Notes under the pieces: model-generated | Seen by the model: the letters and a program-made list of their open reading frames with translations, nothing else | Databases searched by the model: none | Told to the model about the DNA's origin: nothing | Part shown: positions 7,537 to 51,717 of the stretch, piece by piece | How the letters are laid out: each line of letters starts with the position of its first letter | Position numbering within the stretch: position 1 is the stretch's first letter | Assembly (NCBI GenBank): GCA_947165085.1 | Contig: CAMUZA010000005.1 | Location: forward strand, 1 to 64,000 | Direction of reading: 5' to 3' | DNA length: 64,000 nt | From: an uncultured Clostridia bacterium | Lineage (GTDB): Bacteria; Bacillota; Clostridia; Oscillospirales; Oscillospiraceae | Made by a program: the position numbers and the translations under genes

Positions 7537-10029
7537 TTATTTTGCGAAATTCTCAATGAAGCGCATGAGAATGGTCGAAACCTGCGCTCTCGTGGCGTTG
7601 CCTTGCGGCAGGAGTTTGCCGTCGGAGCCGCCGATGATCTTCTCGGCGACTGCCCACTTGATCGCGTCCGTCGCCCAACTGCTGACCTTGCCGCGGTCGG
7701 GGAAGCCGCTCAGGTCGCCGCGCTTCGACGTGTCGAAGCCCTTTTTCTCGGCGTAGCGGAACAGGATCGCCGCCATCTGCTCGCGCGTGATGTTGCCGTT
7801 CGGATCGAATTTGCCGTTGCCGACACCGCCGACGATGCCGTTTGCCGCCGCCCACGCGACCGCCTGCGTGTACCACTGCCCGTCGGGCACGTCCGTAAAG
7901 GTGTTTTTGCCCTCCTTCGGCTCTCCTTCGTACCGCCACAGAACGGTCACGAGCATAGCACGGGTCATCGGGTCGTTCGGCGCGAATCTGTTATTCCCCA
8001 CGCCGTTCATCAGCTTATGTTCTACGGCGTAATTCACCGCGTCGTAGTACCACGCGCTCGAAGCAACGTCGTTGAAGCTTGTCGACGGCGGCGTCACCGG
8101 CGTGTTACCCAAATCGACGAATATGAATCCGTTCTCCTCGGCGTAGGCCTGCGCCGCGGAACCCTTGTAGCCGTAGATCGTAAAGTCGTCTACCTTTAAG
8201 TATTCGTAGGTTTCGTCGTAACCAAACGCCAAATCGCCGATGCTCGTCACGCTGTCCGGAATCGTCACGCTCGTCAGCCCGGTGCAGCCGTAGAACGCAG
8301 AATCGCCGATACTCGTCACGCTGTCCGGAATCGTCACGCTCGTCAGCCCGGTGCAGCCGAAGAACGCCCCAGCGCCGATGCTCGTCACGCTGTCCGGAAT
8401 CGTAATGCTCGTCAGCCCTTCGCACCAGTTGAACGCCTCATCGCCGATGCTCGTCACGCTGTCCGGGATCGTAATGCTCGTCAGCCCTTCGCACCCGTAG
8501 AACGCCCCATCGCCGATGCTCGTCACGCTGTCCGGGATCGTAATGCTCGTCAGCCCTTCGCACCCGAGGAACGCCTTATCGCCGATGCTCGTCACGCTGT
8601 CCGGGATCGTAATGCTCGTCAGAGAGTGGCAGTCCGTGAACGCATAACTGCCGATGCTCGTCACGCTGTCCGGGATCGTAATGCTCGTCAGAGAGCAGTC
8701 CGTGAACGCATTATCTGCAATCAGCTTTGTGCCGGCTTTGACCGTGTAAGCGCCCGCTAACGTCTTTTTTGCTTTTATCAGATAGTTTCCAATATATAAG
8801 ACGCCGTTTGTCCAGTTGGATTCGTTATTATAGTAACCGGTGTTATTGAACGCAGAACTGCCGATGCTCGTCACGCCGCTGCCGATCGTCACGCTCGTCA
8901 GTCCGCTGCAGCCGTAGAACGCATACTCGCCAATACTCGTCACGCTGTCCGGGATTGTCACGCTCGTCAGTCCGCTGCAGCCGTAGAACGCATACTCGCC
9001 AATACTCGTCACGCTGTCCGGGATTGTCACGCTCGTCAGCCCGCTGCAGTCGTAGAACGCATAATCTGCAATCAGCTTTGTGCCGGCTTTGACCGTGTAA
9101 GCGCCAGCTAACGTCTTTTTTGCTTTTATCAGATAGTTTCCAATATATAAGACGCTGTTTGTCCAGTTGGATTCGTTATTATAGTAACCGGTGTTATTGA
9201 ACGCAGAATTGCTGATGCACGTCACGCCGCTGCCGATCGTCACGCTCGTCAGCCCGGTGCAGTTGTAGAACGCAGAACCGCCGATGCTCGTCACGCTGTC
9301 CGGGATCGTCACGCTCGTCAGCCCGCTGCAGCCGAAGAACGCCCCAGCGCCGATGCTCGTCACGCTGTCCGGGATCGTCACGCTTGTCAGCCCGGCGCAG
9401 TTGTAGAACGCATACTCGCCGATGCTCGTCACGCCTTCGGGGATCACCAGATCCGTAACGAGCGTGCCGTTCAGATAGAGCTTTTTCGCAATAGTTAACG
9501 GGTTTGATGCAAGATATGCCTGATTTTCAAAGTAGATTTCGCACCACGCCGCAAGATCCGAAATATAGACTGCGCTCAGCCACTCACATCCTTCAAACGC
9601 ACCCATGCCGATGCTCGTCACGCCGCTGCCGATCGTCACGCTCGTCAGCTCGGTGCAGCCGGAGAACGCAGAACGGCCGATGCTCGTCACGCTGTTCGGG
9701 ATCGTCACGCTCGTCAGCCCGAGACACTCTTTGAACGCAGAACGGCCGATGCTCGTCACGCCGTTGCCGATTTGGACGTCCTTTATGGATTCTGCGTAGC
9801 TGTGCCATGGGATGTCTTCGCTGCTCCACCACCAATCGGACATTTCTCCCGTACCGCTGATCTCCAGCACGCCGGTGTCGGTGTCTAATGTCCAAGTCAG
9901 GTTACTGCCGTCGCCTTCGCCGCCGCAGTACCCGGAGTAGGTTTCCGCACTCGCTGTGAGCAGGGTCGCGGGGAGCAATGCGCAAAGAAGTGCGATTGCA
10001 AGGAATAGTGCTATCAGTCGTTTTTTCAT
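7537..10029 (-). CDS. Secreted BspA-type leucine-rich repeat protein with C-terminal SLH domains
   Basis: Listed ORF extends to 10146, but ATG at 10029 with gga-gaa RBS and a signal peptide ([28 protein letters not shown]) is the likelier start; ~23-aa LRR_5 repeats ([23 protein letters not shown]); three SLH-like repeats at the C-terminus. Confidence 0.92.
8220..9440 (-). repeat. In-frame tandem 69-nt LRR-coding repeats, including a larger internal duplication
   Basis: Recurring gatgctcgtcacgctgtccgggatcgt(c/a)a(c/t)gctcgtcag every ~69 nt; a ~190-nt block near 8704-8900 is nearly identical to 9058-9250. Confidence 0.9.
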
Positions 10030-10065: not shown

Positions 10066-10236
10066 GAACAAAAAAGTGCGCAGCCGAAGCTGCGCACCGG
10101 AAAACGCACAGCTTCTTTGCTGCGACACAAATTCCAATTCATACAATCAGGTATGCGGAAATGAGCGTGCGTTTTTCCCTAAAGAAAAAAAGGCACACTG
10201 ACCGTATGAATCCTTATGAATTTGTGTCGCAAAGAT
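10066..10236 (-). promoter_or_regulatory. Candidate structured 5' leader RNA (riboswitch-like attenuator), copy 1
   Basis: 13-bp P1 (10122-10134 with 10218-10230), P2 (10137-10144 with 10204-10211), conserved core 10151-10176, antiterminator strand 10099-10112, terminator arms 10076-10084/10089-10097 then U-run; same architecture as 47424-47590. Confidence 0.7.
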
Positions 10237-10347
10237 AGTTTAGCATATCGTATTCCGTTTTGCAAGCAAAAACGGTCGCTTTCCGGCAGAAAGCACAACG
10301 TTTAACGCGCCGTAAAGCATTCCCCTCGGAGGGCAAGAATTCTCAAC

Positions 10348-10476
10348 CGTGTCATTGCGAGGCGCGAAGCGACGTGGCAATCTGTGCGTAACGACTTAGG
10401 ATACTTCTCCGTGGGACGGTCATGTCTGTAACGGAAGGATTGCCACGACCGATTCTGTCGGTCTCGCAATGACACG
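10348..10476. repeat. MITE-like palindromic repeat (CGTGTCATTGCGAG TIR)
   Basis: 14-bp perfect terminal inverted repeats cgtgtcattgcgag/ctcgcaatgacacg and internal 10-bp IR cgtggcaatc/gattgccacg. Confidence 0.85.
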
Positions 10477-10567
10477 AAGGGAGGGAAGGACACTCAAAAG
10501 ATAATAGTGGAAATCTCCCGCGCGATTGTGTATAATAGCGGCAGAAAGAAACGAAGGAAGTGCGGCT

Positions 10568-40160: not shown

Positions 40161-40236
40161 GCCGGTATAGCTCAGTTGGTAGAGCAGCTGATTTGTAATC
40201 AGCAGGTCGGGGGTTCGAGTCCGTCTACCGGCTCCA
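40161..40236 (+). tRNA. tRNA-Thr (TGT)
   Basis: gccggtatagctcagttggtagagcagctgatttgtaatcagcaggtcgggggttcgagtccgtctaccggctcca. Confidence 0.96.
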
Positions 40237-40265
40237 CGCAATTTCATATAGTTTATGTGGTATAT

Positions 40266-40350
40266 GGGGGAATTCCCGAGTGGCCAAAGGGGGCAGACTG
40301 TAAATCTGTTAGCAGTGCTTTCGGTGGTTCGAATCCACCTTCCCCCACCA
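40266..40350 (+). tRNA. tRNA-Tyr (GTA); 3' end serves as element attL
   Basis: gggggaattcccgagtggccaaagggggcagactgtaaatctgttagcagtgctttcggtggttcgaatccaccttcccccacca; class II with variable arm. Confidence 0.96.
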
Positions 40351-40380
40351 ATCCCGAAGCTGAAATGCTTCGGGATTTTT
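40351..40380 (+). terminator. Terminator after tRNA-Tyr, inside the element
   Basis: atcccgaagctgaaatgcttcgggattttt. Confidence 0.8.
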
Positions 40381-40515
40381 CTTGTTTTGCGGGCAAAACG
40401 GGTATTTTTTAGCCAATTATGTTAGGCGTTTTCTTGACCCTTAACGCAGTACCCGTTAAAGTACCCGTTAATGGCTGTCACGGAGTAGAGCAGATGACTT
40501 TGATTGGAACAATTG

Positions 40516-41697
40516 TCACGCGCTCGCGGTCATTGCACCTTCCCTTACGGAGCGAATGAAAGCATCCATCCGGTTGGCGCTTTCCCGCTTCATTCCCATC
40601 GTCGCGTGGGCGTAGGTGGAAAGGGTAAAGGCAGCTGTCGCGTGACCGAGATTCTCCTGCACCGTCTTGATGTCGTCGCCTGCCTGCAGGCTGTTGATCG
40701 AAAACGTGTGCCGCAGATCGTGGAATCGGAGTTCCGGCATCCCGAGACTGCTCACGATGCGCTTGAAGTTCATCCAAAGAGTCTTGTTGTTGATATACCG
40801 TCCGAGCTGCGTCGTGAATACAAGATTCTCGTAGTTGTCCCAAGCGCATCCTGCTGCGTCCGCCCACGCCTGCTGCCGCCGCTGTTGCTCTCGCAGTGCG
40901 TCCATCACGGCGGTTGCTGCGGTCAAGGAGCGCGGCCTGCTGTTTTTGAGCGGGGAGAAGTGGTAATCTTTTTCGCCCTTCGCGCGGTGGTGCTGCTTGT
41001 TGATCAGAAGCGTTCCTTTCTCAAAGTCAACGCAATCCCAGGTCAGACCGAGCAACTCTCCCTGACGCAGGCCCGTGAACAGCGCAACGAACAACGGCAA
41101 TTCATACTCGTCTCCTTCAATGGCGCGGAGGAATACGCTCACATCGTTTGCGTCCATAATCCGAAGTTCTTCTTTCTCCACCTTCGGAAGCGTTGTTCCC
41201 TCTGACGGATTGATGCGGAGATAGCCGTTGATCTTTGCTTGCTCCAACGCGCCGTGCAGCGCGCCATGGACGTTTTTCACCGTCTTTGGAGAAAGCCCGC
41301 GTTCGGTGATCAGGCTGTTATAGAGATGCTGGATCTGATGCGTCGTTAGCTTGTTCAGCCGAAGCTTGCCAAGCGCCGGTTTCAGATGGATGCTGATGTG
41401 CATTTCGTAGCTGGCCCTCGTCTCCTGCCGAAGATTGATCTTGTATTCCTTCAGCCAGGTGTCCAGCCACTCTCCGACGGTAATCGACGTCGGCTCGATA
41501 TACGTACCCTCCTGAATGTCCGTCAAGGTTTTGTTCAGCTTCTCACGGACTTCGCGCTTTGTTTTTGCGTATACAGACCGCATGATTTGCCTACCCGTTT
41601 CCGGGTGATAGCCGACAGTATAGCGGCCTTCCCATTTGCCGTCAGCTCTCTGTCTGATTGTGCCGCTTCCAGCGTCGCGGCGTTTTTTTGCTGGCAT
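40516..41697 (-). CDS. int: Tyrosine recombinase / phage-type integrase
   Basis: 393 aa; LFVALFTGLRQGELLGLTWDCVD, RFHDLRHTFSINSLQAGDD, VQENLGHATAAFTLSTYAHAT. Confidence 0.95.
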   Translation of the reverse strand: MPAKKRRDAGSGTIRQRADGKWEGRYTVGYHPETGRQIMRSVYAKTKREVREKLNKTLTDIQEGTYIEPTSITVGEWLDTWLKEYKINLRQETRASYEMHISIHLKPALGKLRLNKLTTHQIQHLYNSLITERGLSPKTVKNVHGALHGALEQAKINGYLRINPSEGTTLPKVEKEELRIMDANDVSVFLRAIEGDEYELPLFVALFTGLRQGELLGLTWDCVDFEKGTLLINKQHHRAKGEKDYHFSPLKNSRPRSLTAATAVMDALREQQRRQQAWADAAGCAWDNYENLVFTTQLGRYINNKTLWMNFKRIVSSLGMPELRFHDLRHTFSINSLQAGDDIKTVQENLGHATAAFTLSTYAHATMGMKRESANRMDAFIRSVREGAMTASA

Positions 41698-41835
41698 AGT
41701 ACCTCTCTTTCTGTAGAACTGAAATGTTCTTGCCAGTCCATTTCAGTTTACATAATATTCCTTGTTTTGCTGGATTGCAAGAGAAATCTCTCCGGTGTTT
41801 TTCACAAAGTTTTCTCGTGCTTTTGTGCTGTTTGA

Positions 41836-43206
41836 CTATCTGCCGCCGGGTTCCGCACGGTAATGGCGGTTGCGGTGGTCCTGACGGCTGACGGCGGCTT
41901 CGGCGGCCTCTCGCTCTTTGACGGTCTGCAGCACGTCCTCCATCACGACCGGACCGAGTTCGCATTTCACCAGCGCATATTCCCGCAGTTCGGATTTCAT
42001 TTCTTCATTTTCTGCGTACGCGGTCTCCCATCGCCGTTTCAGAATATCACGGTCACGGGCGGCGGTCTCAAACTTCTTCTGCCAGTCTTTGACCTTGGCG
42101 CGCAGTTCCTGCACCGTGTGCCAGAGCGACAGCGCGACTTTCCACAGCTTTTGGATGATCGGCTTGGCTTTCTTCTCGCGGTAGTGGCTTGCGTATTCCA
42201 TCGGCGTCGTTTTGGGAATCAGGTCTTCCGGCCTACCTAGATGATCCGCGACGAATTTCTCCGCGTCCTCGACCTGCGGCGTCAGCTGCTCCAGACGTTT
42301 CTGCTTCTGCTCGATCTCTTTCTCGACGGCGTACTTTTCTTTCCGTACTTGAGAAAACTCCGATGATTCTTCTCTGACTTTTTCGTGGATCATTTCAAGA
42401 CGGCGTTCTTCTCGATCGACTTTGAATTGCGTCACGGTCAGGTGTTCCTCGCTGCTGCCGCGCTCGCCGCGTTCCACGTCGGGGTAGCCGGCAGCGACCA
42501 TGTGATTGTAGAAGTCGTCTTGCAGAACGGAATACGAATGATGCAGGATGAGCTTGCCGTTTTTATCGAGCAGCGGCTTGCCGTACTTGTCCTGCGCCGG
42601 TTTCGATTCCCACTTCTTCGAGCGACTGACCTGCGGGATGATCTCCTTTACGGTGCCGACCAAAGACGGGTCCTTGCAGCGCTTCGACCAAAGCTTTTTC
42701 TTCTCCACTACCGGCACATAGACGACGTGCATGTGATAGTGAAAGACGTCCTGCCCCAACGCGTCGGACATCGCACGGTTTCGCTCGTCAGCGTGCATCA
42801 CTGCGGAGAGGATATACTTTTCACCGCCGACAATTTCGATCGCGGCCTGGTAGGCGTCGGCATAAAACTGTTTCGCGAATTCATACCCGCCGTGATTGAA
42901 AAAGTATGCGGAGTTGACGTCGAAGATCAATTCGCACATCTTCGTTGAGCCGGGTTTCAGCCCCCAGGTCGAGATCACTTTCTGATCTTCCAGCGCGGAG
43001 AAAGTTTCCTCATACGTGCCGACCGGCGATTTGAAATGCACGTTCATCGGCGTCCGTTCGGGAACGATATCCGGATTGGAATACGACTCTTTCTTCCTCT
43101 CATTGTGAGCGTATGCGCTCTGGGGCGTGGCTTTTTTATCTGCCTTGAGATCGCGGTTGCGGACGAACGTGTGATTGGCTCCGTCGTTGCGGGCCATAGG
43201 CATCAC
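41836..43206 (-). CDS. mobV: MobV/Pre-family relaxase
   Basis: 456 aa; motif I-like HNERKKESYSNPDI, metal-binding FHYHMHVVYVP, long coiled coil; internal ATG at 43197 also possible. Confidence 0.9.
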   Translation of the reverse strand: MMPMARNDGANHTFVRNRDLKADKKATPQSAYAHNERKKESYSNPDIVPERTPMNVHFKSPVGTYEETFSALEDQKVISTWGLKPGSTKMCELIFDVNSAYFFNHGGYEFAKQFYADAYQAAIEIVGGEKYILSAVMHADERNRAMSDALGQDVFHYHMHVVYVPVVEKKKLWSKRCKDPSLVGTVKEIIPQVSRSKKWESKPAQDKYGKPLLDKNGKLILHHSYSVLQDDFYNHMVAAGYPDVERGERGSSEEHLTVTQFKVDREERRLEMIHEKVREESSEFSQVRKEKYAVEKEIEQKQKRLEQLTPQVEDAEKFVADHLGRPEDLIPKTTPMEYASHYREKKAKPIIQKLWKVALSLWHTVQELRAKVKDWQKKFETAARDRDILKRRWETAYAENEEMKSELREYALVKCELGPVVMEDVLQTVKEREAAEAAVSRQDHRNRHYRAEPGGR

Positions 43207-43254
43207 CTCCTTTGATTTGGAATGGAAAGGCCCCGGAGAAGCACTTTTGCGAAA

Positions 43255-43301
43255 GTGTATTAACCCACTATGGTACTTTCATCCTTCGGCTGCAAAGTAC
43301 C
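43255..43301 (-). other. oriT: Predicted oriT of the IME (pMV158/MobV-like)
   Basis: Minus strand GGTACTTTgcagccgaaggatgAAAGTACCaTAGTGGG/TTAATACAC: inverted repeat immediately 5' of a MobV-like nick sequence, about 50 bp upstream of the relaxase gene. Confidence 0.75.
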
Positions 43302-43619
43302 GTGGGCTCTGCGAGGCGGATGCGGCTGCTGCGGCAGCCTGCGCCGAGGATATGAAGTCGTTTTCGCTCCATATCCCCGGCGCGGGCAGCTTCAATTGTT
43401 CGCTGCCCTGTGCCGAAAAACCGCACCGTGGTCTTTCGGCAATCCTCCCTCGGAAGCCGTCGCTTCCCTCGTCCGGGCGAGAGACGTCAGGACGAAAAAG
43501 TTTCGGGAGGCTGGGGGGGGTGTGCGCGTTGAAAGAGTTATCATAATCTTTCGCGGCGGCAAAAAGAAAAGCGACTGTTCCGCACCTGCGTCGGCAGGCG
43601 ATTCCGGAACGGTCGTTTC

Positions 43620-43826
43620 TTATTTCACGCTATTGAGAGCGTCCGTGTTTTGCTCCATCCACGCAAGCAATTTGTCTTTCGCGACCAGCAGACGGGACGC
43701 GACGTGCAGCGTCGGAAAGTCTGCCCGATGCAAAAGCTGATACGCACCTGCGCGAGAGATGCCCAGAAATTCTTTCAGCTCCTTCACGCTGAGAACAACG
43801 GGAAGTTCATCGAAGTTTTTGTACAT
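43620..43826 (-). CDS. Excisionase-like MerR/HTH_17 DNA-binding protein
   Basis: MYKNFDELPVVLSVKELKEFLGISRAGAYQLLHRADFPTLHVASRLLVAKDKLLAWMEQNTD; start at 43826. Confidence 0.88.
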   Translation of the reverse strand: MYKNFDELPVVLSVKELKEFLGISRAGAYQLLHRADFPTLHVASRLLVAKDKLLAWMEQNTDALNSVK

Positions 43827-44110
43827 GGGGTTCTCCTTTCGTAAGATTTGGTCTGCCTCATTCGCGGCACAGCAGACCATTCGCTGTGGCGCATTGGCTG
43901 TTTCACCTCCTGTTTGTTATGTAAAACTTCTCGCGCAAGCGCTTTGCAGTCCGATTTTTCGGACTCGCAATGTAGTATGATTATGGCATCAAGGTAAGGA
44001 GGAACCTCGACTGCCTCTGCCAATGGGAAAACTGGAACCGATTTTCGGAACTGTTTTCAGAAAAAACTTCATTTTTTTGATAAAATTCTTCTACTGCGGG
44101 AAAGGAGTGG

Positions 44111-45028
44111 GTGGCTTTGGAGGAATATGAAGAATGGGAAACCGAAACGGAGGACGATGCGTCCGATCTCGATCTCTTTTCCACTGATACGCTCGACGAT
44201 GCGTCGGAAAACGATCTTTGGGATGACGCAGAGCCGGATGACACGCCGGAGCCGGATGCCGGAGAAAAAGACGTATTTGAAATCGAACCGGACGAGGTCG
44301 AAGCGTCTCTCGATCTGTATGGAGAAACGGATGACGGCGATGACGATGTACTGCTGATTGGCTCTCTGAAAAAGCATCCGATCTATCAAACGCTCCTGGA
44401 ACAGAACAAGACGTCTGCCAAGCGTCAGCTGATCCGCGAGCTGAAAGAGGACGCCTTGGCGCGGATTGAATTCGCGGCGCGATCTCTGCGGGATTATGAG
44501 CAGATTCTTCTTTTCTGGGACAAAAGAGACGACGCCGCTGCCCGACGGCAGCGACTGCATGAGAACAACCGGGGCGACGTGCTGTTGGAATGGAACAGCC
44601 GTGTTTACGCCGCCAGCGGGATCGACTTGACCTTCCCGGCGTGGATGAACGAGCCAATGATCTCGCAGCTCCGCCGAGGGCAATTTCTGGATTGCCTGTT
44701 CGACTGCCCGTATGAAATGCACGACCTGACCGCGAAGGAATATCTCCGCAGACCGATTATGGAGCTGAAAGAGGAACACAAGGAGATCCTGCATTTTCTC
44801 TATCTTCGGCTGTACGATCCGCAGCGGCTCGCGGTCCTGCGCGGACAGTCTGCACGTAATGTCCGAAAGGTGCGGGACGTTGTACTGCGGAAGGTTCGCA
44901 GAAATGTTTACGCCGCTCTGCTGAAACAGCAAGCAGCAGGAAGAATTCTGACGCCGAGGGAGCGAGCGTTTCTCGAAGAATTCACGCCGGATGGCGTGAG
45001 AAGAAAGGATGGTGACGACTGTGCGTGA
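44111..45028 (+). CDS. Protein with acidic N-terminus and sigma-70 region 4-like C-terminal HTH
   Basis: 305 aa, GTG start after aaaggag; ~80 aa Asp/Glu-rich head; KEEHKEILHFLYLRLYDPQRLAVLRGQSARNVRKVRDVVLRKVRRNVYAAL resembles a sigma r4 helix-turn-helix. Confidence 0.6.
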   Translation: MALEEYEEWETETEDDASDLDLFSTDTLDDASENDLWDDAEPDDTPEPDAGEKDVFEIEPDEVEASLDLYGETDDGDDDVLLIGSLKKHPIYQTLLEQNKTSAKRQLIRELKEDALARIEFAARSLRDYEQILLFWDKRDDAAARRQRLHENNRGDVLLEWNSRVYAASGIDLTFPAWMNEPMISQLRRGQFLDCLFDCPYEMHDLTAKEYLRRPIMELKEEHKEILHFLYLRLYDPQRLAVLRGQSARNVRKVRDVVLRKVRRNVYAALLKQQAAGRILTPRERAFLEEFTPDGVRRKDGDDCA

Positions 45029-45890
45029 TCTGTTTGCCAATACGAGCGCGCATTGGGGCAAGTATTCCGAATACGAATGGAAGACCGCGCCAGACGGGAA
45101 CTGCTATCTATTACCCGCAGATAAAGCAGAACCCAGCGTATATGATCCGATGCAGGACCCACATACGCTGGTGATCGACGCGTTGGAGGTCGGTATGATG
45201 CTGTTCCAGCGCGAGCCGGAGTCAAAGATCAAAGAGGCGATCCGATCGTTTGCAGAGAAGTACGGCATGCTCGGCATTATGACCGCGCTGCCGACAACGG
45301 CGGATATCATCGAATACGAAAAGGTCTATCTGCCGAAGAATCCGTTTCTGCGGAATGAAACGATGGAAACGAAGGACTATATCGGTCTGTTTTTCCCGTT
45401 CATTCAGCCAGATTTCAGCAAGAAAGGCGTGGAGTCCGTCTGGCGGACGGAGGACAAGCACGAGATCGCATTCGCGATGACCTTCCGGCAGGAGCCGCAG
45501 GCGATGGCGATGAGCTTGATGCGAAACTACGGCGAGCGATACGACTGGCTATGCAAGCTGTTTAAGGATTGGGTCGCACTTGCGATTACAACGCAGTTTT
45601 ACGTGGACGATAAAGAACGGAAAGACCCTGATACCGTCGCGCTCTACCGAAAGAGCATTGCCGCCTTCGACGGCAACGCGCCGACATATCGCATCGAACT
45701 GCGGGACAAACCCACGCTCGTCTGGGACTTCCATTCTCTGCTGCTGGACATCCGTTTCCTGCTCTGCCTGCTTCTGACAGACGATCAGACCCCGCTGCGC
45801 CTGTGCAAGAACTGCCTCAAGCCGTTTATCGCCGCTGAAACGGAAAGAGAATACTGCTCTGATGCGTGCAGGAATAATAATTCGGAATAA
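45009..45890 (+). CDS. DUF6076-like protein with C-terminal zinc knuckle
   Basis: 293 aa; C-terminal CKNCLKPFIAAETEREYCSDACRNNN; overlaps the upstream CDS by 20 nt. Confidence 0.65.
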   Translation: MVTTVRDLFANTSAHWGKYSEYEWKTAPDGNCYLLPADKAEPSVYDPMQDPHTLVIDALEVGMMLFQREPESKIKEAIRSFAEKYGMLGIMTALPTTADIIEYEKVYLPKNPFLRNETMETKDYIGLFFPFIQPDFSKKGVESVWRTEDKHEIAFAMTFRQEPQAMAMSLMRNYGERYDWLCKLFKDWVALAITTQFYVDDKERKDPDTVALYRKSIAAFDGNAPTYRIELRDKPTLVWDFHSLLLDIRFLLCLLLTDDQTPLRLCKNCLKPFIAAETEREYCSDACRNNNSE

Positions 45891-45968
45891 AAAAGTAGAA
45901 TCAGTCGGCATAATGTATTGCAATTTGCAAAACAATGTAGTACAATATGGGTGAAAGGTGGTGCGATT

Positions 45969-46265
45969 ATGAAAGACGCAACTGTCAGCGCACGTGTGGA
46001 ATACGGAGTGAAAACCGAGGCGGAGGATATCCTGCAAAAGCTCGGCATCCCGGTTTCTGTTGTGATCAATTCTCTGTATCGGCAGATCATCTTCCGCAAC
46101 GGGGTTCCGTTTTCCCTGACCGTCCCTACTCAGCCGAAGACGATGGACACGCTGACCGACGCAGAGCTGAATGCCAAGCTGCAGCACAGTTATGAGCAGG
46201 CGGCAGCAGGGCAAGGTCGTCCCTTCACCGAGGTCTTCGACGAGCTAGAGAAAGGGCTGAATTGA
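45969..46265 (+). CDS. RelB/DinJ-family antitoxin
   Basis: MKDATVSARVEYGVKTEAEDILQKLGIPVSVVINSLYRQIIFRNGVPF; start at 45969. Confidence 0.9.
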   Translation: MKDATVSARVEYGVKTEAEDILQKLGIPVSVVINSLYRQIIFRNGVPFSLTVPTQPKTMDTLTDAELNAKLQHSYEQAAAGQGRPFTEVFDELEKGLN

Positions 46266-46591
46266 TGGACGAATACGAGATCATCATAACGCCCGACGCC
46301 TCGGAAGATCTGTGGGAGCTGCGAAACTATATTGCAGACGTCCTGCTCTCGCCGGAGACAGCTTTGAAATACGTCCGCACTGTTCGGCAGGAGATCGCCG
46401 GCCTCGCTCAGTTCCCTGCCCGCTTCAAGCCAATGGACGAGGAGTCTTGGCATTCCCGCGGTGTCAGAAAACTGCTTGCAAAGAATTTCTATGTATACTA
46501 CTGGATCGATGAGCCGAGAAAGCGCGTCTATGTGATGAACGTGATCTATGCCCGCCGCGATCAGTTCCAGGCGTTGGCACAAAAGAACTGA
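46265..46591 (+). CDS. RelE/ParE-family toxin
   Basis: MDEYEIIITPDASEDLWELRNYIADVLLSPETALKYVRTVRQEI...; ATG overlaps antitoxin TGA by 1 nt. Confidence 0.9.
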   Translation: MDEYEIIITPDASEDLWELRNYIADVLLSPETALKYVRTVRQEIAGLAQFPARFKPMDEESWHSRGVRKLLAKNFYVYYWIDEPRKRVYVMNVIYARRDQFQALAQKN

Positions 46592-46680
46592 AGGGATTAC
46601 AACACTAAAGCATGATTATTGCTTTATGCCAATCAAATTATCGCGAAAAACGAAATGACGGAAGCACAGTTCCTGTGTTG

Positions 46681-46814
46681 CCGGCATCCGCTACACCCTG
46701 CCGGAGGACAACAGTCAGATCTTCGCCTCCAAGTATTTCACCTACCTGCCCACCGAAGAAGAGCTCAAACGCGAGCTGCGGCTGGATGAATTCAACCCGT
46801 TGGAAACAGACTAG
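46681..46814 (+). pseudogene. C-terminal remnant of a DUF1016/YhcG-type nuclease
   Basis: Frame read directly: AGIRYTLPEDNSQIFASKYFTYLPTEEELKRELRLDEFNPLETD*, matching my recollection of the YhcG C-terminal signature; no upstream body present. Confidence 0.7.
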
Positions 46815-46885
46815 AAAGACAACACTAGGATATTGCGGATAAAACCCCAAATAGCAAATGACGGAAGCACGTTTTTGTGCCTCCG

Positions 46886-47083
46886 TCATTCTTTTTCTAT
46901 TTCCACAATCTCATTCGGCGTGCAATCCAGAATCCGGCATAGCCGACTGAGCGTAATCATGGTGATGTTCCGTCCTTTTTTCAGAGAGTCCAGCGTCCGG
47001 TTGTCAATGCCGCCCTTGAGCAGCTGATACTGCGTCACGCCCTTCTCTGTCATTGTTCTCCATAAGGGCTCATAGTTGAACAT
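46886..47083 (-). CDS. Cro/C1-type (XRE) HTH regulator
   Basis: MFNYEPLWRTMTEKGVTQYQLLKGGIDNRTLDSLKKGRNITMITLSRLCRILDCTPNEIVEIEKE. Confidence 0.88.
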   Translation of the reverse strand: MFNYEPLWRTMTEKGVTQYQLLKGGIDNRTLDSLKKGRNITMITLSRLCRILDCTPNEIVEIEKE

Positions 47084-47201
47084 TGAACTCACCACCATTG
47101 CTAAACTACTGCAATTATATGGTGATTTCCGAAAAATACATATTGTGATTATCGTCACAATATGGTATGATGGTGATACAACAAAAGAGGAGGCCACGCC
47201 T

Positions 47202-47354
47202 ATGGAAAAAGATTATTTCATCGACACCCTATTCGACCTAATCAACGAGAGTGACGCACTGGAAGCAGATTTACAGGATGTTCATGCTGACCGTGATGGT
47301 CTCACAGTTGCCATGAAAGATGGCTCTGTGTTTATTCTAACCTTGACGGGGTAA
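47202..47354 (+). CDS. Small hypothetical protein
   Basis: MEKDYFIDTLFDLINESDALEADLQDVHADRDGLTVAMKDGSVFILTLTG; RBS agaggagg; start at 47202 instead of 47076. Confidence 0.6.
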   Translation: MEKDYFIDTLFDLINESDALEADLQDVHADRDGLTVAMKDGSVFILTLTG

Positions 47355-47388
47355 TTCGACTTTGACAGGATAATTCAACGAAAAAGTA

Positions 47389-47417
47389 TTGCATTTCCTA
47401 TATTTGTTTGATAAAAT
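47389..47417 (+). promoter_or_regulatory. Promoter of LRR-lipase leader
   Basis: TTGCAT - 17 nt - TAAAAT, 6 nt upstream of P1; copy 1 has TTGCAA - 17 nt - TAAACT and the same 6-nt gap. Confidence 0.7.
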
Positions 47418-47423
47418 GATTTT

Positions 47424-47590
47424 GCGACGTAACTTCATATTTCCTTCCCTTGGAGGATGTGTTTTTGCTTTGGTAAAAACGCATGCTCATTTTCGGCATC
47501 CTCTAAAGGGATCGTTTGAAGTTGCGTCGCAGCAATGGAGCTGTGCGTTTTTCGTGCGCAGCCTCCAAAAAAGCTGCGCACTTTTTATGT
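47424..47590 (+). promoter_or_regulatory. Candidate structured 5' leader RNA (riboswitch-like attenuator), copy 2
   Basis: P1 47424-47437/47517-47530; P2 47447-47458/47498-47510; P3 47461-47466/47475-47480; core 47475-47499; antiterminator strand 47540-47552; terminator 47554-47562/47573-47581 plus U5. Confidence 0.72.
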
Positions 47591-47637: not shown

Positions 47638-50600
47638 ATGAAAAAGCGAATGTTATCTGTACTATTAGCCTTTGCACTGCTGTGTACCATGCTGCCGCAA
47701 CTTGCCTTCTTTGCCAACGCAACGTTCTATTCTGGCTCTTGCGGTGCACAAGGCGACAATTTGACGTGGACGCTGGACACCGAAACCGGGTTGCTAACCA
47801 TTGAAGGAAGCGGTGGGATGGCGGATTGGAATCCTATCAATCCTCTCCCTCCATGGTACTATTCTAGAAGCTTGATTAAAAGTATTTCTATTAGTAATGA
47901 TACGTTTAACATTGGTTCCTATGCGTTTTATGAATGTGTTAATTTGTCAAGTGCTGTCCTTCCAGATAGTATTACTAGCATAGGTAGCAGCGCATTTGGC
48001 AGCTGCAGCAATTTGACAAATATTACCGTTCCCGCGGGGGTTAAGGTTATCGGGAGGAATGCATTTTCTTCCTGTTCAAGCTTAACATCTGTTTTCATCC
48101 CCAATAGCGTAACTACTATTGGTAGTAGTGCTTTTTCATATTGCACCGAACTAAAAAAAGTTACAATTCCAGCAAGTGTCAACAATGTTGCAGAGTGGTC
48201 AGGTGTTTTCGGCATGTTTTATGGATGTGTCAACTTAGGTGCTATTATTGTTGATGCGGATAATCCATGTTATAGTAGCGACTCTTGTGGTGTAGTGTTT
48301 AATAAAAATAGGACTGAGCTATTATGTTGCCCTCCTGGATATAAAGGTGCATACTCCGTACCAAACAGTGTGTTAAACATTGAAGAGTGTGCATTTTACG
48401 ATTGTAATGATCTGACTGAAATTGTAATTGGTTCTGGTGTATCAGAGATTGGTAATAATGCGTTTAACGGCTGCGTTGCCCTGGTTCAAGTAATTGTTCC
48501 TGATAATGTAAAAACAATTGGATACGGTGCTTTTCAAAATTGCACTGGTTTGCAAACTGTATCTCTTTCAGACGGCATAACATACATTGATGCCTCAACT
48601 TTCAGAAACTGTTCCAGTTTAACAAAGGTTTCGATAGAAAATTCGGTTTTGCAAATTGGTGAAGAGGCCTTTGAAGGCTGTACAAATTTAGTGGATATTA
48701 TAATTCCCGATGGCCTTAGAATTCTCGGTTCATTATCGTTTAGAAGTTGCAGCGCTTTGACTGATGTAACTATTCCCGATAGCGTTACCCAAATAAATAG
48801 TAATGCTTTTGCCTACTGTAATAATCTAACTAACATTGTAATACTAAACCCTAGTTGCCTAATAAAGGGCGGAAATAGCACTCTTGGTGTGCCTGGAACC
48901 ACAACAATCTTCGGCTATTCGGATTCTACTGCACAGACATACGCAGAAGAATACGGGTATACCTTTGCCGCGTTAGATGGTGAGCCATCCGGCGATCCGA
49001 TTTTGTCCGACGAAATCACGCATTTGATTTTTTCCGACCTTGCTTACCGTCACATTAACAGCAAATATGTGGGAAGGACTGTGTCGGAGTGGCAGGCAGA
49101 TATTACACAGGAAATCGACGAGGAGGCTGAAAAGCTGAGCACAGACCCCAATTATGAGCCGAAGCTGGATCACAACAGTTTCAACGAACTCAACGGTCAA
49201 TTATACGATTCTGATTCTTTGCGGGTCATTGACGTCTTAGGCATGGTGGGAGATTGGGTAATCAAGGAAGTGATTCACGGCGACAACGGCTACGCAGCTG
49301 CAGTTTTTCAAAAGGGCAACGATATTATCATTGCATACCGAGGCTCTGAGGGAGATATCATTAAATCTGTACAAGATGGTGAGGATTGGTCCGTTGACCT
49401 GGGATTTGCGCTGTTTGATTATCTGGATGAAGGGCAGTTTCGGGATGCGCTTGAAACGTATTACAAGTATGCTGACCAAGGAAACGTAACACTGACCGGA
49501 CATTCGCTGGGCGGCGCATTGGTTACTTATGTTTCGATTGTGACTGGCGCAGAGGGCTATTCCTTTGATGGTGCGGCTGGACATGTTGTGGATCTGACCT
49601 ATTTGTTCGAGCCTCTGAGAATTGATTTCTCATCTAAAAATAATATGACGTTCGCAAATTACACAGACCCGCCTGGCGCAAGCACCCTCGGAGCGGATTT
49701 GATTCAGCATACGAACGCAGATCTGTTTCCCGGCGTGTGCTATAAAACAAATCCGAATGCGGCAAAAAACGGCTATCCAGAATTTTTCTGGACGCATCAA
49801 CGGTTTTCTAATACAAAGCTGAGCGAAGATGGGAAAGCGATCGAGTTTATGCCGGTTGCTGAAACGCATTCACCGAAGGCGAAATGGTATGCATCTGTGG
49901 ATTATGAATATCTTGGCATTCTTGAGGGTGCCGCTGTCGGAGCCCTTGGCGGACTTCCATCTGGTCTGGCAGGAGGTGTTATCGGTGCAGGTGTAGGTAG
50001 GTTGGTCAAAAAAGGCAACGTGATCCTTGGCGACACTGGAGATGACAACCTCTCTGTACTCAGTTTTATCAGCAATCCCCTCGACTATACCGCAGTGGTA
50101 ACAAGAAATGTTATATATGGCGGAGATGGAAAAGATGTCCTTTACGGCGCGGCAGGCTCAGATGTCCTCGCCCCCGGCGAATTAAAGGGAGACTTGCTTT
50201 GCGGCGGCTTGGGCAACGACGATTATATACTTGATTGCAAAAACGGAGGAGAAGTATACATTTCAGATTCCAGCGGCAGCGATAGAATTATTCTAAACGG
50301 CGTTGATACGGTATATTCTTTTGAAAACGAGGGCTCAACTGCGGATGGAAAGTGGGAGATTTATTGTGCGAATAGCGTCCTAAGAATCTATGTCCAGAAA
50401 ACGATATTTAGCCATAAATTCTCTATCATAGATGTTTCAGGAGCATCGTATGGGACTGTTGACTCTAAGCGCATCACTACTCGCAGAGGAGAGCCCGAGG
50501 CAGAGGCAGATAAGGAAAGCAAAGAAATACTTGTACTGGGCGACGCGCAGATTGTGATTTATGATGAAAGCCGCACTGTGGTTTCAGAGATATCAACCAG

Positions 50601-51717
50601 TGACTATGGTTTGCGTAGCGAGGAATATGGGACTGTCTATGCAGCGAATGATGGTGAACAAAACTACCTTTCCGCAACCATCTATGAAAACTATTCAATT
50701 GAAGTCATTGGAGACAGCGTAGTAGACGTACTAATTGTCGGGACTGACAGCAACGGCAATGCGAAAAAAGCAACACAAGCAAAGGGTATTGATCTGCAGT
50801 GGGCTGATGCAGAAATTGACTCGGCAAAACAAACTGTTACGCAAAACGGAGTGTCAGCGGTCACATGTGTGACTGACAAGACCGTTGGTGTTTCCATTCG
50901 CCAAACCTTGCAGGAATTGAGTGTTGATGAAACAGCCACGCTGTCTGCAACAGCTTTCTTTGAAGATGGCTCGCAGAGTACGGATGTTTATTGGGTCAGC
51001 TCTGATGCAAGCGTAGTTCGTTGTGATTACGATGAGGGCGGAGAATGTATAATCTCTGCTGTTGAAGTCGGCAATGCAACGATATATGCGATTGCAAGTG
51101 ATAGTGGTTGCTTTGCAAGCTGTGAGTTGCAGGTAAAATCAAACACATTGGTTCCCTGTGACGGCGGCGAAAATTGTCCGGGCAATGTGTTTACGGATAT
51201 GCCCCCGAAAGGCAACTGGGCGCATGACGCAATCGACTGGGCGATTGTAAACAAGATTACCGCTGGTACGAGCACAACGACGTTCAGCCCCAATGCAGGC
51301 TGTACCCGCGCGCAGGTCGTGACCTTCCTCTGGAGAGCAGCAGGCAGCCCGGAGCCGGAGACTGAAAATAATCCGTTCTCAGATGTGAAAGCTGGAACAT
51401 ACTACTACAAGGCTGTTTTGTGGGCTGTTGAAAATAAAGTCACAGCAGGCACTTCCGCAACAACCTTCAGCCCGGATGCAACCTGTACCAGAGGACAGAT
51501 CGTGACCTTCCTCTGGCGCTTCGAGGGCAGCCCCGCACCGAAGACAACGAACAATCCCTTTACGGACGTTAAGCCCGGCTCCTACTACGAAAAAGCAGTC
51601 CTCTGGGCCTCCGAAACCGGCGTCACTGCCGGCACCTCCGCTACCACCTTTAGCCCGGAGGACACTTGTACCAGAGCACAGGTTGTGACGTTCCTGTACC
51701 GGGATATGGAAAGCTAA
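47638..51717 (+). CDS. Secreted LRR - class 3 lipase - RTX-like - Big2 - SLH multidomain surface protein
   Basis: ~1359 aa; signal peptide; BspA-type LRRs; lipase GHSLGGALVTY; RTX-like GGDGKDVLYGAAGSDVL...GGLGNDDYI; Ig-like segment; three SLH repeats (FTDMPPKGNWAHDAIDWAIVNKITAGTSTTTFSP...). Confidence 0.9.
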   Translation: MKKRMLSVLLAFALLCTMLPQLAFFANATFYSGSCGAQGDNLTWTLDTETGLLTIEGSGGMADWNPINPLPPWYYSRSLIKSISISNDTFNIGSYAFYECVNLSSAVLPDSITSIGSSAFGSCSNLTNITVPAGVKVIGRNAFSSCSSLTSVFIPNSVTTIGSSAFSYCTELKKVTIPASVNNVAEWSGVFGMFYGCVNLGAIIVDADNPCYSSDSCGVVFNKNRTELLCCPPGYKGAYSVPNSVLNIEECAFYDCNDLTEIVIGSGVSEIGNNAFNGCVALVQVIVPDNVKTIGYGAFQNCTGLQTVSLSDGITYIDASTFRNCSSLTKVSIENSVLQIGEEAFEGCTNLVDIIIPDGLRILGSLSFRSCSALTDVTIPDSVTQINSNAFAYCNNLTNIVILNPSCLIKGGNSTLGVPGTTTIFGYSDSTAQTYAEEYGYTFAALDGEPSGDPILSDEITHLIFSDLAYRHINSKYVGRTVSEWQADITQEIDEEAEKLSTDPNYEPKLDHNSFNELNGQLYDSDSLRVIDVLGMVGDWVIKEVIHGDNGYAAAVFQKGNDIIIAYRGSEGDIIKSVQDGEDWSVDLGFALFDYLDEGQFRDALETYYKYADQGNVTLTGHSLGGALVTYVSIVTGAEGYSFDGAAGHVVDLTYLFEPLRIDFSSKNNMTFANYTDPPGASTLGADLIQHTNADLFPGVCYKTNPNAAKNGYPEFFWTHQRFSNTKLSEDGKAIEFMPVAETHSPKAKWYASVDYEYLGILEGAAVGALGGLPSGLAGGVIGAGVGRLVKKGNVILGDTGDDNLSVLSFISNPLDYTAVVTRNVIYGGDGKDVLYGAAGSDVLAPGELKGDLLCGGLGNDDYILDCKNGGEVYISDSSGSDRIILNGVDTVYSFENEGSTADGKWEIYCANSVLRIYVQKTIFSHKFSIIDVSGASYGTVDSKRITTRRGEPEAEADKESKEILVLGDAQIVIYDESRTVVSEISTSDYGLRSEEYGTVYAANDGEQNYLSATIYENYSIEVIGDSVVDVLIVGTDSNGNAKKATQAKGIDLQWADAEIDSAKQTVTQNGVSAVTCVTDKTVGVSIRQTLQELSVDETATLSATAFFEDGSQSTDVYWVSSDASVVRCDYDEGGECIISAVEVGNATIYAIASDSGCFASCELQVKSNTLVPCDGGENCPGNVFTDMPPKGNWAHDAIDWAIVNKITAGTSTTTFSPNAGCTRAQVVTFLWRAAGSPEPETENNPFSDVKAGTYYYKAVLWAVENKVTAGTSATTFSPDATCTRGQIVTFLWRFEGSPAPKTTNNPFTDVKPGSYYEKAVLWASETGVTAGTSATTFSPEDTCTRAQVVTFLYRDMES

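Follow-up and report, generated by a model that had tools for sequence, protein, structure and literature searches.

An apparently undescribed structured leader RNA with attenuator-like alternative pairings in one order of mostly uncultured gut Clostridia

The leader in its genomic setting

The window analysed here, a stretch of 64,000 nucleotides from an uncultured Clostridia bacterium, encodes two large proteins with LRR and SLH domains: an 830-residue exported BspA-type protein on the minus strand (7537-10029; Pfam LRR_5 1e-146, SLH 2e-39) and a 1359-residue protein on the plus strand (47638-51717; LRR_5 6e-77, SLH 3e-30). The same structured leader lies upstream of both genes, and the two occurrences are referred to below as copy A and copy B. 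Copy A occupies 10070-10230 on the minus strand, is sited among core genes and is complete from its promoter to the ATG at 10029; the elements that an initial annotation had read in this interval were all found in the sequence, almost to the letter. A long imperfect MITE-like palindrome (about 10353-10477, TCATTGCGAGAC ... CGCAATGACAC) lies between copy A and a divergent ROK gene.

The promoter of copy A consists of a -35 box, TTGCAA (10260-10265), and, after a 17-nt spacer, a -10 box, TAAACT (10237-10242), from which 6 nt lead to the 5' strand of helix P1 (10218-10230; this and all further copy A coordinates are on the minus strand). P1 keeps the 13 pairs ascribed to it, 10230-10218 pairing with 10134-10122. 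At the P1/P2 junction there is a one-sided ATA internal loop (10213-10217), followed by the 5' strand of P2 (10198-10212, pairing with 10136-10150) and by segment a, the 5' strand of P3 (10184-10198), whose first base is common to P2. Segment b, with the core AAAAACGCACGCTC (10163-10176), has either a or c as partner. On its 3' side come the junction ATTTCCGCATAC (10151-10162), in which a pyrimidine run is conserved in the alignment, and the return strands of P2 (10136-10150) and P1 (10122-10134). Segment c, GAAGCTGTGCGTTTT (10101-10115), contains GTGCGTTTT and pairs with b or, as an antiterminator, with d. The terminator (10070-10097) is made up of its 5' arm, segment d (10089-10097), which pairs with e or c, and of segment e, the 3' arm plus T run (10070-10084). 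The RNA is about 160 letters long, and a terminated transcript would thus be about 160 nt.

Copy B, on the plus strand, has a promoter at 47389-47417 (TTGCAT ... TGATAAAAT), a P1-P2-P3 hairpin at 47424-47530, in which P1 is 47424-47436/47518-47530, P2 47447-47458/47498-47510, segment a 47457-47468 and segment b 47475-47488, and segments c, d and e at 47537-47586; within its terminator loop, CCTCC is complementary to the GGAG of c. Both copies are unusually stable, with fold z-scores of -6.8 (A) and -8.1 (B) and no equally stable sequence among 200 shuffles of either. The loop core is kept, as the initial annotation had it, a 20-base core being present at exactly two places in the window where 0.02 would be expected. 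That annotation also held that several P1 positions had changed on both sides. Three pairs differ between A and B; two are two-sided changes (A-U to G-C and A-U to C-G), and the third, C-G to U-G, is one-sided. A simple recent duplication was rejected on the P2 sequences, which are wholly different yet complementary. Upstream of copy B, 40161-47355 holds two tRNA genes and, after them, an integrase of phage type, a relaxase (Mob_Pre) and an ORF of 50 aa; by this gene content copy B seems to be carried on a mobilisable element that has integrated.

Is this leader confined to the two loci? The annotation had called copy A the second copy; it is indeed the same leader at both sites, but a search with BLAST and with R1, a covariance model derived from ten leaders, found at least five good sense copies in the source genome: the two of the window and single ones on contigs C8, C1 and C30. 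Four of them precede LRR/SLH-type surface proteins (LRR-SLH for both window copies, LRR for C8 and C1) and the C30 copy precedes a lipoprotein gene. In the C1 copy the core AAAACACAC is matched by the tail GTGTGTTTT, and the upstream arm no longer matches fully. A one-mismatch core match on contig C11 lies within a gene and has no leader around it, and where the model also matches the antisense strand of a real copy, the palindromic structure is the cause. The source genome (G000) has an unusually large set of S-layer-anchored proteins, with 111 SLH domain matches in 1.9 Mb.

Distribution and consensus

R1 matched 10 of the 17 genomes sampled from the genus, 80 of 400 from the family and, in the order as a whole, 113 of 394 (about a quarter) in 65 of 168 genera; the order consists mostly of uncultured gut bacteria. 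Genomes carry up to about nine copies (G010). Among 398 genomes from across the phylum the model matched only the source genome itself and one further locus, L178, which is spurious and lacks P1; R1 is therefore highly specific. Named records containing the core are assemblies of Oscillospiraceae, Clostridiales and other Clostridia; rumen and gut are their main sources. When the window and 15 relatives were scanned against Rfam 15 (4227 families) at the gathering threshold, only tRNAs were matched, and permissive scans added only low-scoring, inconsistent matches below that threshold. A phage origin was rejected because a scan of viral contigs was empty, and no plasmid match was obtained. Two records labelled 'Bacteriophage sp.' do carry the leader: MT835845.1 (L179) is a fragment of a bacterial chromosome (ClpB, YicC), and in MT837627.1 (L180) an integrase adjoins it.

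With near-duplicates removed, 147 leaders were available for comparison. A suitably spaced TTG at -35 is present in 100 of them, and in 110 an extended TGn -10 element lies exactly 4 nt upstream of an NTGC start. The consensus comprises a P1 of about 13-15 pairs; the ATA loop (134/147); a P2 whose sequence drifts freely at fairly constant length; P3, formed by segment a (UGCGUUUUUACC) and segment b (GGUAAAAACGCAYGCUC); next, a junction rich in pyrimidines and the returning strands of P2 and P1; a GCRRCA linker (present in similar form in 138/147); segment c (GGAGCURUGCGUUUUU); and the terminator d:e. Terminators were detected automatically in at least 149 of 154 leaders. About 50 nt beyond the tail (segment c) there is typically a start codon preceded by a ribosome-binding site. 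At some loci two leaders stand in tandem, each with its own promoter.

Downstream genes

Exported and membrane proteins are strongly over-represented behind the leader. By a simple hydrophobicity rule, 73 of the 131 distinct first downstream genes encode a signal or membrane segment at the N terminus; among other ORFs at the same loci the count is 51 of 351 (p=1e-18). The proposed regulon of surface proteins holds to this extent; it is not a regulon of LRR/SLH paralogues. In the source genome the leader is present at only four of ten LRR_5 proteins and so marks a subset, and across the order the first genes are spread over numerous families with no relation to one another (19 of 131 are LRR_5, 6 AMP-binding ligases and 6 SLH; SHOCT, zinc-ribbon, HTH and others also occur). 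The idea that LRR/SLH paralogues generally carry the leader was thus not borne out, and the N-terminal module common to the two window proteins is therefore not the reason why they share it. Among complete first downstream proteins, SLH domains occur in 6 of 76 (8%). At the two loci checked the units look monocistronic.

Two recurrent neighbours may be recorded here. A protein of 50-65 aa with no clear family (M.DY..MY....A.EDAI..L......A..ILI.A...AE..YIE) is encoded directly downstream in several genera, sometimes behind tandem leaders (L128:4254-4439, L130:594-740, L131:4268-4447, L032:1053-1220, L145:2003-2146 and others). An AMP-binding ligase starting (T)GYPS.DKPWLKYY follows six leaders (L042, L043, L047, L050, L070 and L077), and in L077 the ligase gene appears to stand alone in its unit.

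Coevolution of mutually exclusive helices

In a swap test on the 147 leaders, the duplex energy of native partners was compared with that of partners taken from other leaders. Native pairing was better for all six helices, P1, P2, a:b, b:c, c:d and d:e, with p values from 1e-8 to 4e-26 (P2, 4e-26; d:e, 1e-25; a:b, 3e-24; b:c, a pseudoknot over P1, 4e-19); for c:d the effect was stronger when d was extended by the terminator loop (p=3e-14). Of the non-partner controls, a:c (p=0.17) and b:d (p=0.6) gave no effect and a:e a marginal one (p=0.03). Relatedness among leaders can inflate covariation counts, but as the cause of the covariation it is argued against by these controls, which show little or nothing.

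Counts of base pairs point the same way. In P1, two-sided changes occur at 10 of 13 alignment positions and 95.7% of cells are paired; in b:c the figures are 7 of 13 and 92.6%, and the paired fraction of b:c drops to 29-69% in slid registers. For P1 plus b:c, and for b:c alone, none of 500 shuffles matched the observed percentage paired or covariation score, while for b:c alone two measures that count only pairs or pair types were within chance. The P1 changes noted in the initial annotation are thus compensatory rather than neutral drift, by swap test and pair counts alike; its pairing of AAAACGCAC with GTGCGTTTT is real in that it covaries; and the antiterminator and terminator strands overlap, as it claimed, with both helices coevolving. 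These comparisons show that all six helices exist and coevolve, and the evidence that they provide for alternative pairing of the attenuator type is strong.

The same results bear on two simpler readings. The first is that the terminated transcript of about 160 nt is a trans-acting small RNA and the downstream genes are incidental. Its own promoter and terminator and its multiple copies would suit this, but the tail typically has a start codon and ribosome-binding site about 50 nt behind it, exported proteins are enriched downstream, and the alternative c:d pairing coevolves although the terminator of a small RNA would not need it; we regard the proposal as very improbable. The second, a stable, non-switching 5' hairpin with a partial terminator that spreads as a promoter cassette on mobile elements, could draw on the integrase/mobilisation element around copy B and on the tandem copies, each with its promoter. 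It offers no account of why b:c and c:d, which are mutually exclusive, both coevolve, and it is the least credible of the alternatives.

A possible mechanism

Coevolution indicates that the mutually exclusive antiterminator (c:d) and terminator (d:e) are both under selection. Each of the four helices a:b, b:c, c:d and d:e shares a strand with the next, so that two states exclude each other: a:b together with c:d would give read-through, b:c together with d:e termination. The energies of a:b (-14.5 kcal/mol), the antiterminator (-13.9) and the terminator (-17.2) are similar, as would be expected of a switch. Judged from sequence comparison, the leader is probably a promoter-proximal, riboswitch-like transcription attenuator working through the chain of strands a-b-c-d-e.

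Judging from the promoter, the first transcribed nucleotide would belong to the outermost P1 pair, and P1, P2 and the P3 hairpin (a:b) would be the first to fold. As long as b is held by a, c would be free when d emerges, the c:d antiterminator would form and the gene would be transcribed. If instead c captures b, the two forming up to 13 pairs as a pseudoknot across P1, d would be left free for e, and transcription would stop after about 160 nt. P2 may bend back at the ATA loop, letting b reach c with P1 intact; the conserved ATA loop and the constraint on P2 length fit such a fold-back. A small molecule bound at the ATA loop, the GCRRCA linker and the core junction might favour b:c and so turn the gene off, the sign of this response being a guess. 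The model makes clear, opposite predictions for read-through according to which strands of a-e are paired.

Which state is the default? When growing copy A transcripts were folded with nested pairs, an 11-bp c:d antiterminator formed before e was made, which suggests that read-through is the default and b:c the off signal. That said, the default state is not certain, the average terminator being more stable than the average antiterminator; in the minimum-energy fold of copy B it is the terminator that forms.

A protein could just as well be what the conserved unpaired nucleotides bind. The same two-state attenuator might then be controlled by an RNA-binding protein at the P1/P2 junction or at segment c, a reading that accommodates the order-restricted distribution (which fits a lineage-specific protein), the conserved single-stranded GGAG-like and ATA elements and the broad regulon of single genes. 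We nevertheless hold it to be unlikely, though the most serious of the rivals: no candidate regulator was seen beside the leaders, and a protein site would hardly call for so long and elaborate an aptamer-like part. LoaP-dependent antitermination in particular was rejected, since none of 30 genomes had a LoaP above the NF033641 cut-off. So was leader-peptide attenuation of the trp type: an upstream ORF with a Shine-Dalgarno sequence, a start codon and at least six codons was found in only 30 of 147 leaders, and no conserved translated one.

To return to a riboswitch-like attenuator, the surface-protein regulon suggested c-di-GMP as a candidate ligand. This is unlikely, since GGDEF proteins are absent from 20 of the 40 carrier genomes tested, including the source genome and G010. 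The downstream genes are too varied to point to one ligand. The chances are about even, on the comparative evidence, that the leader represents a new orphan riboswitch class for a probably envelope- or community-related signal, distinguished by five-segment strand exchange and a long fold-back pseudoknot and spread as a promoter-leader-terminator cassette, on mobile elements too. Because c-di-GMP, the usual explanation for surface-protein riboswitches, fails for half of the carriers, the ligand could reveal an envelope-remodelling signal of this group.

Relation to known RNAs

In off-switch riboswitches of the preQ1 and SAM-II type a loop strand pairs with a downstream tail and thereby controls expression. 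The leader resembles them in this, but its pseudoknot has up to 13 pairs and spans a P1 of 13-15 bp, and both strands have alternative covarying partners. With trp-type and T-box attenuators it shares a chain of mutually exclusive antiterminator and terminator helices; it differs from the former in having no conserved leader peptide and from the latter in giving no T-box match in the Rfam scans. The c-di-GMP-I and -II riboswitches are similar in their many copies, unrelated but surface-biased targets, occasional tandems and terminators (as covered in part by PMC4759541 and PMC11477304), whereas the leader has no Rfam match and half of the carriers tested lack GGDEF proteins.

The nearest published candidate is the SLH motif (Stav et al. 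2019, PMC6429828), likewise a structured RNA before S-layer-homology protein genes that occurs in Clostridia. However, that motif was discovered in Thermovirga (Synergistota), is reported from Synergistaceae and Negativicutes as well as Clostridia, and has about 60% of its examples before SLH genes, whereas here only 6 of 76 first proteins (8%) have SLH domains and the 398 phylum genomes yielded no convincing member outside the order. On this comparison of distribution and gene association we consider identity or close kinship improbable. Neither PMC8632094 nor PMC11109978 nor the main text of PMC8040213 was found to describe the leader, which may figure as an unnamed entry among the 3161 human-microbiome candidates of the last. 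It is apparently a new, widespread, order-restricted structured RNA. As a regulatory RNA family it would span no fewer than 65 genera from gut and rumen, preceding genes for surface proteins and other accessory functions.

Divergent copies

Three leaders (L078:4501-4615, L134:60-190 and L143:1501-1626) have no recognisable terminator, and a fourth (L113:4501-4632) has an unrelated one; these copies may have decayed or be wired differently. In G009 a divergent, compact relative (L028:1501-1607) keeps P1, the ATA loop and the core intact, with P2 and P3 much shorter.
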